DNA from: Acidobacteriota bacterium
Lineage (GTDB): Bacteria > Acidobacteriota > Terriglobia > Terriglobales > Acidobacteriaceae
Length of the DNA: 64,000 bases
Assembly (NCBI GenBank): GCA_013289875.1
Contig: JABCZC010000010.1
Location: 1 to 64,000, forward strand
Direction of reading: 5' to 3'
A model generated the notes under the pieces. It saw nothing but the letters and a program-made list of their open reading frames with translations, made no database searches and was not told where the DNA came from. Positions 47,655 to 48,822 of this stretch are shown here, piece after piece (positions within the stretch are counted from its first letter, which is position 1; every line of letters begins with the position of its first letter). Position numbers and translations under genes: made by a program.

Positions 47655-47805
47655 CTAGGTACGAGCAGTTGAGACATTTCCTTTAAGCGTCGAGTGTGTC
47701 CGCGTAGCCTTCACTAGCCTTGGGTGGTGCGATACTATCTTTCTACCGTGTGAGCCTGCGAAACACGCACATCTGATAACAGGGGAGCTATTTGGAAGGG
47801 CGGAG

Positions 47806-48822
47806 ATGAGGATCGCGGTGCTCGGCAGTTGGCGTGAGAGCGACGCGCACTACACAGTTCGGGGATCGAAGAAAGAATTTGAAGCCGCGTGTCGCGAAAT
47901 TGGTCGGGAATTTGCTAGCCGGCAACAAGTCATTGTTGTTGGCGCCCAATCGGATAGCACTGCGGACGCCCATGTTGTAAATGGATACATCAGTGTTACG
48001 GGCAATAATGCTGAACGACCATTGATCCAAATCGTTCGCCCGGACGACGATTCCAACTCATACCGAGATCTCGCGTCTAAGTATCCAAGGTTATTTTCCT
48101 TCCCACCCTCAATGCAGCATAAGTGGGGAGACGTTCACCTAATCCAGATCCGCGACGCAGACGCCATCCTGGTAATAGGAGGAGCGTCGGGAACGTATCA
48201 AGCGGGTTTGGCAGCGATTGTGGCAAAAAAGCGATTAATCCCGATTGGGTCATTCGGTGGTGCGGCGGGTAAACTTTCGAATTCCTTGCATTCGCCCGAC
48301 GTGCCGTTTGCAACTGAGTTAGGCATTCTCAATGGACCGTGGAACAGCCATACGTTGGATACTGCAATGAGTTTGCTCGGAGTCAATCGCAAACCGAAAA
48401 TTCTCATAATTCATGGCCATGGTTCTGATCGCTACAAACTAACGGAGTGGCTTCGCACTACACTTGGTCTAACAGATTTGCTGATCATGCAACAGGAGTT
48501 CGGAGCGGGTCGTGCCCTACCGGATAAATTCGAAAGTATCGCTGAGCAGGCTGACGGCGCCATCGCGGTGGCTACACCGGACGACGTGGGGGGCATTGTA
48601 GGAAGTACGCCGGAGTTGTTGCGAGCGCGCCAAAATGTTTGGATTGAGATTGGCTGGACTTGGGGTCGTTTAGGTCGCAATAAGCTTATTTTACTTTGCA
48701 AAGGAGGCATCGAAGTTCCAAGCGATCTGCACGGGATGGAGTATTACCGCTACAACGATTCACCTCTCGAAGTCACCGAGAGCATCCGAGCCTTCATACA
48801 CCAACTGGCTGGGCGTGAGTAA
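47806..48822 (+). CDS. SLOG-like + C-terminal TIR-like (CAP12/PCTIR type) nucleotide-binding protein
   Basis: N-terminal Rossmann-like half MRIAVLGSWRESD...DADAILVIGGASGTYQAGLAAIVAKKRLIPIGSFGG; C-terminal KILIIHGHGSDRYKLTEWLRTTLGLTDLLIMQQEFGAGRALPDKFE...VATPDDVGG...LLRARQNVWIEIGWTWGRLGRNKLILLCKGGIEVPSDLHGMEYYRYND matches the predicted TIR-like nucleotide-binding family. Confidence 0.82.
   Translation: MRIAVLGSWRESDAHYTVRGSKKEFEAACREIGREFASRQQVIVVGAQSDSTADAHVVNGYISVTGNNAERPLIQIVRPDDDSNSYRDLASKYPRLFSFPPSMQHKWGDVHLIQIRDADAILVIGGASGTYQAGLAAIVAKKRLIPIGSFGGAAGKLSNSLHSPDVPFATELGILNGPWNSHTLDTAMSLLGVNRKPKILIIHGHGSDRYKLTEWLRTTLGLTDLLIMQQEFGAGRALPDKFESIAEQADGAIAVATPDDVGGIVGSTPELLRARQNVWIEIGWTWGRLGRNKLILLCKGGIEVPSDLHGMEYYRYNDSPLEVTESIRAFIHQLAGRE

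Follow-up and report, generated by a model that had tools for sequence, protein, structure and literature searches.

Both SLOG sensors and TIR NADases are familiar, either separately or as a pair split across two genes in Thoeris, and an association between SLOG and TIR domains has been described earlier in reviews (PMC9503650; PMC7824862). The Pfam name of STALD (PF18185), "Sir2- and TIR-associating SLOG family," likewise records the association with TIR; therefore, the novelty seen by a first-pass annotation in a SLOG-TIR fusion within the window (the whole stretch of 64,000 nucleotides that was analyzed) was overstated. No description of this single-chain SLOG-TIR was found in the open-access literature, an absence that carries little weight.

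The closest described relatives each share a part of the protein. Like the type I Thoeris effector ThsA (SIR2-SLOG), it joins a SLOG sensor to a predicted NAD-destroying enzyme. However, the effector is a TIR here and a SIR2 in ThsA (no SIR2 match was found here), the SLOG is N-terminal here and C-terminal in ThsA, the pocket Arg and Glu of ThsA (R371 and E403, by motif) correspond to His111 and Ala133, and the adjoining genes are an alcohol dehydrogenase (ADH) and a GNAT acetyltransferase, with no ThsB TIR gene among them. With the CBASS effector Cap12/TIR-STING (SfSTING), it shares the TIR family (PF10137) and the same R/N/E/D residue set. In contrast to Cap12, its TIR is C-terminal, its sensor is a SLOG and not a STING domain, and no CD-NTase lies nearby; the NCBIfam Cap12 models score 32.5 bits, far below their cut-off of 450. 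The Pycsar effector PycTIR also carries a C-terminal TIR of the same Pfam family, and its structure is the best PDB sequence match of the protein (8jsj, E = 1.9e-5). The N-terminal part of PycTIR binds a cyclic nucleotide through another domain, and no pyrimidine cyclase gene was seen adjoining the SLOG-TIR gene. The best PADLOC match is PDC-S35, a candidate single-gene system (E = 6.9e-28), on which no paper was found in the open-access literature. This match covers the TIR half only (profile positions 116 to 238 of 264) and does not extend over the full profile, as the N-terminal part differs; the remaining PADLOC matches are to generic TIR effectors, again in the TIR half only. Finally, the SLOG half is homologous to STALD and to SLOG cluster 4 (PF18306) by hhalign (99%), although it scores under both cut-offs. 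The parts of the protein are known and their combination is scarce; it is not ThsA, Cap12, or PDC-S35 as such.

The gene and its predicted TIR active site

The open reading frame, the VIGGASGT stretch (residues 123 to 130), and E281 in WIEIG are as first described. The features used below are as follows.

47794 to 47799, plus strand: Shine-Dalgarno-like GGAAGG, 6 nt 5' of the ATG, as read in the sequence
47806 to 48822, plus strand: SLOG-TIR gene, 338 aa, complete open reading frame with ATG start and full-length relatives L022 (52%) and L050 (38%)
47806 to 48393, plus strand: N-terminal SLOG domain, residues 1 to 196 (PF18306 below cut-off; hhalign; Foldseek)
48124 to 48138, plus strand: WGDVH, residues 107 to 111, with His111 at the conserved Arg place of a ThsA-like STALD protein (hhalign alignment to L120)
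48178 to 48195, plus strand: GGASGT glycine loop, residues 125 to 130, with the Glu of the LOG motif GGxGTxxE replaced by Ala133
48397 to 48756, plus strand: C-terminal CAP12/PCTIR-type TIR, residues 198 to 317 (PF10137)
48628 to 48648, plus strand: RQNVWIE (R275, N277, E281), aligned with SfSTING R78, N80, and E84
48724 to 48726, plus strand: D307, aligned with SfSTING D110, which is supplied to the active site by the dimer mate

The GGAAGG ahead of the start codon would be a plausible ribosome-binding site, and a terminator/promoter scan gave nothing above chance. The gene is indeed AT-richer than its neighbors, with a GC content of 0.520 and a GC3 of 0.522 compared to 0.57 to 0.64 and 0.69 to 0.82 in the adjacent genes. 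Its GC3 is the fifth lowest among 52 open reading frames, and of the four below it several are short, doubtful frames. Recent acquisition had been proposed from this and from the position between unrelated metabolic genes; composition as proof of recent transfer was rejected, because GC3 is low yet codon usage is ordinary (rank 8th of 36, no outlier). By itself, composition is weak evidence for transfer, and the argument is carried by the patchy distribution described below.

The assignment of the C-terminal half to the CAP12/PCTIR type was confirmed by PF10137 (E = 4.5e-23, 81.9 bits against a cut-off of 24.7; E = 3.2e-23 in the genome search). In SfSTING, E84 is the catalytic residue and D110 comes from the dimer mate (PMC9402430). 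In a phmmer alignment counted on the printout, R275, N277, E281, and D307 fall on positions 86, 88, 92, and 118 of the 7un8 chain, which correspond to SfSTING R78, N80, E84, and D110 with a constant offset of 8, so that E281 does take the place of the catalytic Glu. Among 66 aligned TIR stretches, the Asn and Glu are invariant (66/66) and the Arg is present in 56, while the Asp place holds Asp in 48 and Asn in 16; all four residues are invariant across the three SLOG-TIR proteins known to us. The best Foldseek matches of the TIR half, taken from low-confidence AlphaFold models, were TIR-STING/SfSTING at a probability of 1.00. On paper, the predicted NADase active site is therefore complete.

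The SLOG half and its pocket

Recognition of the N-terminal half depended on the type of search. With the full protein, SLOG cluster 4 (PF18306) reached E = 7e-4 and 19.7 bits, under its cut-off of 26.3; with the isolated domain, PF18306 (E = 1.8e-4) and STALD (E = 0.22) both remained under cut-off, and no named Pfam SLOG family was matched above it. The profile-profile comparison was firm: a five-member N-terminal family aligned by hhalign with a STALD/cluster-4 SLOG alignment, which includes one SIR2-STALD (ThsA-like) protein, at a probability of 99% and E = 3.6e-18. The N-terminal profile also matched the TM1055 structure 1rcu (E = 1.1e-5). Two AlphaFold models, one from 2 sequences (mean pLDDT 56.7) and one from 28 rows (mean pLDDT 65.5, residues 43 to 111 below 50), have low confidence in the SLOG half and were used for fold matching only, with no reading of the pocket. 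By Foldseek, the SLOG half of the first matched the BcThsA SLOG with 3'cADPR (7uxs) at a probability of 1.00 and that of the second matched 1rcu at 0.99. Matches of the low-confidence model to UDP-GlcNAc epimerase were dismissed (rmsd 17 to 20). Because the hhalign, 1rcu profile, and Foldseek results agree, the N-terminal half is a SLOG, of a divergent branch outside any named Pfam family. The checks proposed with the original annotation (SLOG and PF10137 searches and structure comparison with ThsA-SLOG and TIR) thus support both domains.

In catalytic LOG proteins and in the ThsA pocket, the helix that precedes the strand of the glycine loop supplies an Arg, and GGxGTxxE supplies a Glu. In ThsA, R371, K388, and E403 coordinate 3'cADPR (PMC10022894; for the STALD family, PMC7272460). 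In the hhalign alignment to the ThsA-like SIR2-STALD protein L120, the Arg place is His, His, and Lys and the Glu place is Ala in all three SLOG-TIR proteins, the places being assigned to ThsA numbering by motif (R371/E403) and not by direct alignment to ThsA. The loss of both residues bears on two readings. First, binding of cADPR isomers in the manner of ThsA is not established, as the pocket Arg and Glu are not conserved. Second, both halves could be enzymes, the TIR making an ADP-ribose derivative that the SLOG cleaves, either to switch the response off or to process the product. Phosphoribohydrolase activity is found in some SLOG domains, the LOG type (PMC9503650), and the GGASGT loop resembles the one kept by LOG. 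However, since the LOG/STALD Arg has become His or Lys and the Glu has become Ala, we regard a second enzyme as quite unlikely. With these catalytic residues replaced, the SLOG half is probably a non-enzymatic sensor, and its ligand need not be 3'cADPR.

Distribution and genomic context

A scan of 85,488 species genomes, made with short exact-type peptide patterns that more distant members would escape, found a full-length relative in an uncultured Schlesneria, a planctomycete (L022; 52% identity over residues 1 to 331). A profile of this first pair added a third full-length member from another family of the same phylum as the window (L050 in genome G201; E = 3e-81, 38% identity). By profile search, the full-length form occurs in 2 of 396 genomes of a phylum sample, one being the window's own; it is absent from eight same-genus genomes, some of them incomplete, and among 300 planctomycete-phylum genomes it was seen in the query genome only. 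No relative turned up on viral contigs, whether these were scanned with the full protein, with the alignment of the three members, or with that of the SLOG, and plasmids searched with the SLOG half of the planctomycete protein gave no match. The TIR domain alone is present on viral contigs: 29 viral or proviral IMG/VR contigs (L125 to L153) encode PF10137-like TIRs, and the SLOG half was not found there by scans.

The TIRs of the three SLOG-TIR proteins form one clade (support 100/99) that is present in 100% of bootstrap trees, so a single origin of the fusion, with later movement as a unit, is most likely. As the window's copy is more similar to that of the planctomycete than to the other one in its own phylum, the identities point to movement between phyla. 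The gene is patchily distributed and probably acquired. Patchiness agrees with the proposed acquisition. A search for a clean empty site found the ADH gene kept in five same-genus genomes, but what lies downstream of it there is not the same or the contig stops, and no precise insertion could be drawn. A functionless fusion, decayed or formed by chance, for which rarity might speak, is barely credible: three lineages, at identities as low as 38%, retain the domain order and the full length, the active-site residues are invariant, and the TIRs form one clade. Conservation of both halves largely refutes it.

The gene order in the window is gltB, a CxxCxxCC protein, a zinc-type ADH, SLOG-TIR, a GNAT acetyltransferase, and a PfkB kinase, so that the gene stands between unrelated genes, as annotated; none of nine nearby genes tested against PADLOC matches. 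The neighbors of the planctomycete copy look ordinary by reading. In G201, a CapV-like patatin (PADLOC phospholipase effector, E = 4e-45) is encoded directly alongside SLOG-TIR in divergent orientation, and genes for a CHAT protein and a subtilase come next. No conserved partner gene or signal-making enzyme adjoins any of the three genes. Restriction of homologues to housekeeping neighborhoods had been named as a refuting observation, and it describes two of the three members (window and planctomycete) and not the third. A housekeeping regulator of NAD or nucleotides with no tie to phage defense would suit the metabolic neighbors in the window's genome and the planctomycete. We consider this unlikely, however, given the extreme patchiness (no copy in 8 same-genus genomes, and 2 copies among the 396 genomes of the phylum sample with the window's own counted) and a TIR family found otherwise in defense models and on proviral contigs. 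As a separate observation, L050 4490 to 11443 reads as a row of CHAT, CapV-like patatin, SLOG-TIR, and subtilase adjoining lysine/dap genes, a defense-like island.

Proposed mechanism, ligand source, and effectors

Our favored reading, held with moderate confidence, is that SLOG-TIR works in a single chain as an immune-type NADase gated by a ligand and would act as a compact antiphage self-destruct switch. It draws on features computed here, namely both domains (PF10137 and SLOG homology), the kept active-site residues, the common ancestry of the unit in one clade, and effector swapping, together with the patchiness and the defense-like neighbors in G201. Counting against it are the housekeeping neighbors, which are the only ones in two of the three members, the lack of an adjoining signal maker, the low-confidence SLOG models, and PADLOC matches confined to the TIR half. 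We infer ligand sensing, oligomerization, NAD+ cleavage, and an antiphage role as follows: (i) the SLOG would sense a nucleotide-derived ligand, either an ADP-ribose derivative produced by a TIR or a different nucleotide appearing on infection; (ii) ligand on the SLOG would shift the oligomeric state, by analogy with ThsA and TIR-STING; (iii) the TIR domains would pair, one chain contributing E281 and the other D307 to the active site; and (iv) NAD+ would be destroyed, leading to growth arrest and a stop to phage replication.

The source of the ligand is a distinct question. The earlier idea of a self-contained switch is not established: no partner adjoins, but the window's own 5 Mb assembly (G000) holds 14 TIR_2 (PF13676) matches (L154 to L161) that could make the signal, and this rich set may include signal makers. 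The genome has no PF05014 match, but its 14 TIR_2 matches make supply of the ligand in trans a live alternative, in which another TIR protein would produce the ligand and SLOG-TIR would read it, the NADase output being shared with our favored reading but not the self-contained switch. A Rhodococcus opacus plasmid (pRho-G13) offers further support. There, a nucleoside deoxyribosyltransferase-like gene (PF05014) ends touching the start of a gene for a SLOG relative with 2TM-like segments (L016, 3507 to 5041), a candidate two-gene pair of signal maker and membrane effector, and the enzyme is of the DrHyd type, thought to make or process nucleotide signals (PMC9503650). This coupling is a hint that the SLOG family reads products of nucleotide-processing enzymes. 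In contrast, none of the three SLOG-TIR genes has a conserved adjoining partner, the enzyme and effector of known Thoeris pairs are encoded in one operon (PMC12847820), and PF05014 is absent from the window's genome; we hold supply in trans as tentative and less likely than our favored reading. A true one-protein loop, in which the TIR would make an ADP-ribose-type ligand sensed by its own SLOG, self-amplifying and with no separate messenger enzyme, appears improbable. SLOG-TIR lets one ask if sensing and NAD+ destruction can close in one protein and, as a single chain whose SLOG lacks the ThsA pocket residues, provides a compact system for asking what nucleotide is recognized by SLOGs of this kind.

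The same SLOG family occurs on other effectors. In the SLOG-only relatives L016 and L052 (G424), hydrophobic segments come after it that look by eye like a 2TM region and have no Pfam match. In L119 6221 to 7750 (G619), an N-terminal extension precedes it and a KAP-family NTPase comes after it, with a truncation at the end of the contig. In L118 7452 to 8588 (G413), it is joined to a canonical TIR_2, apparently an independent SLOG-TIR pairing with another TIR family. In G394, N-terminal and pair profile searches found a STALD SLOG plus DUF4062. The 2TM-like, KAP NTPase, and canonical TIR partners are as expected of a putative sensor with swappable effectors, and they offer swappable readouts for its ligand. 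Other domain arrangements were noted by reading or by eye: a PF10137-type TIR behind an apparent response-regulator receiver domain (L003 868 to 1935, G095), and a large open reading frame in which a formylglycine-generating-enzyme-like domain comes after a SLOG-like stretch (L091, G210).
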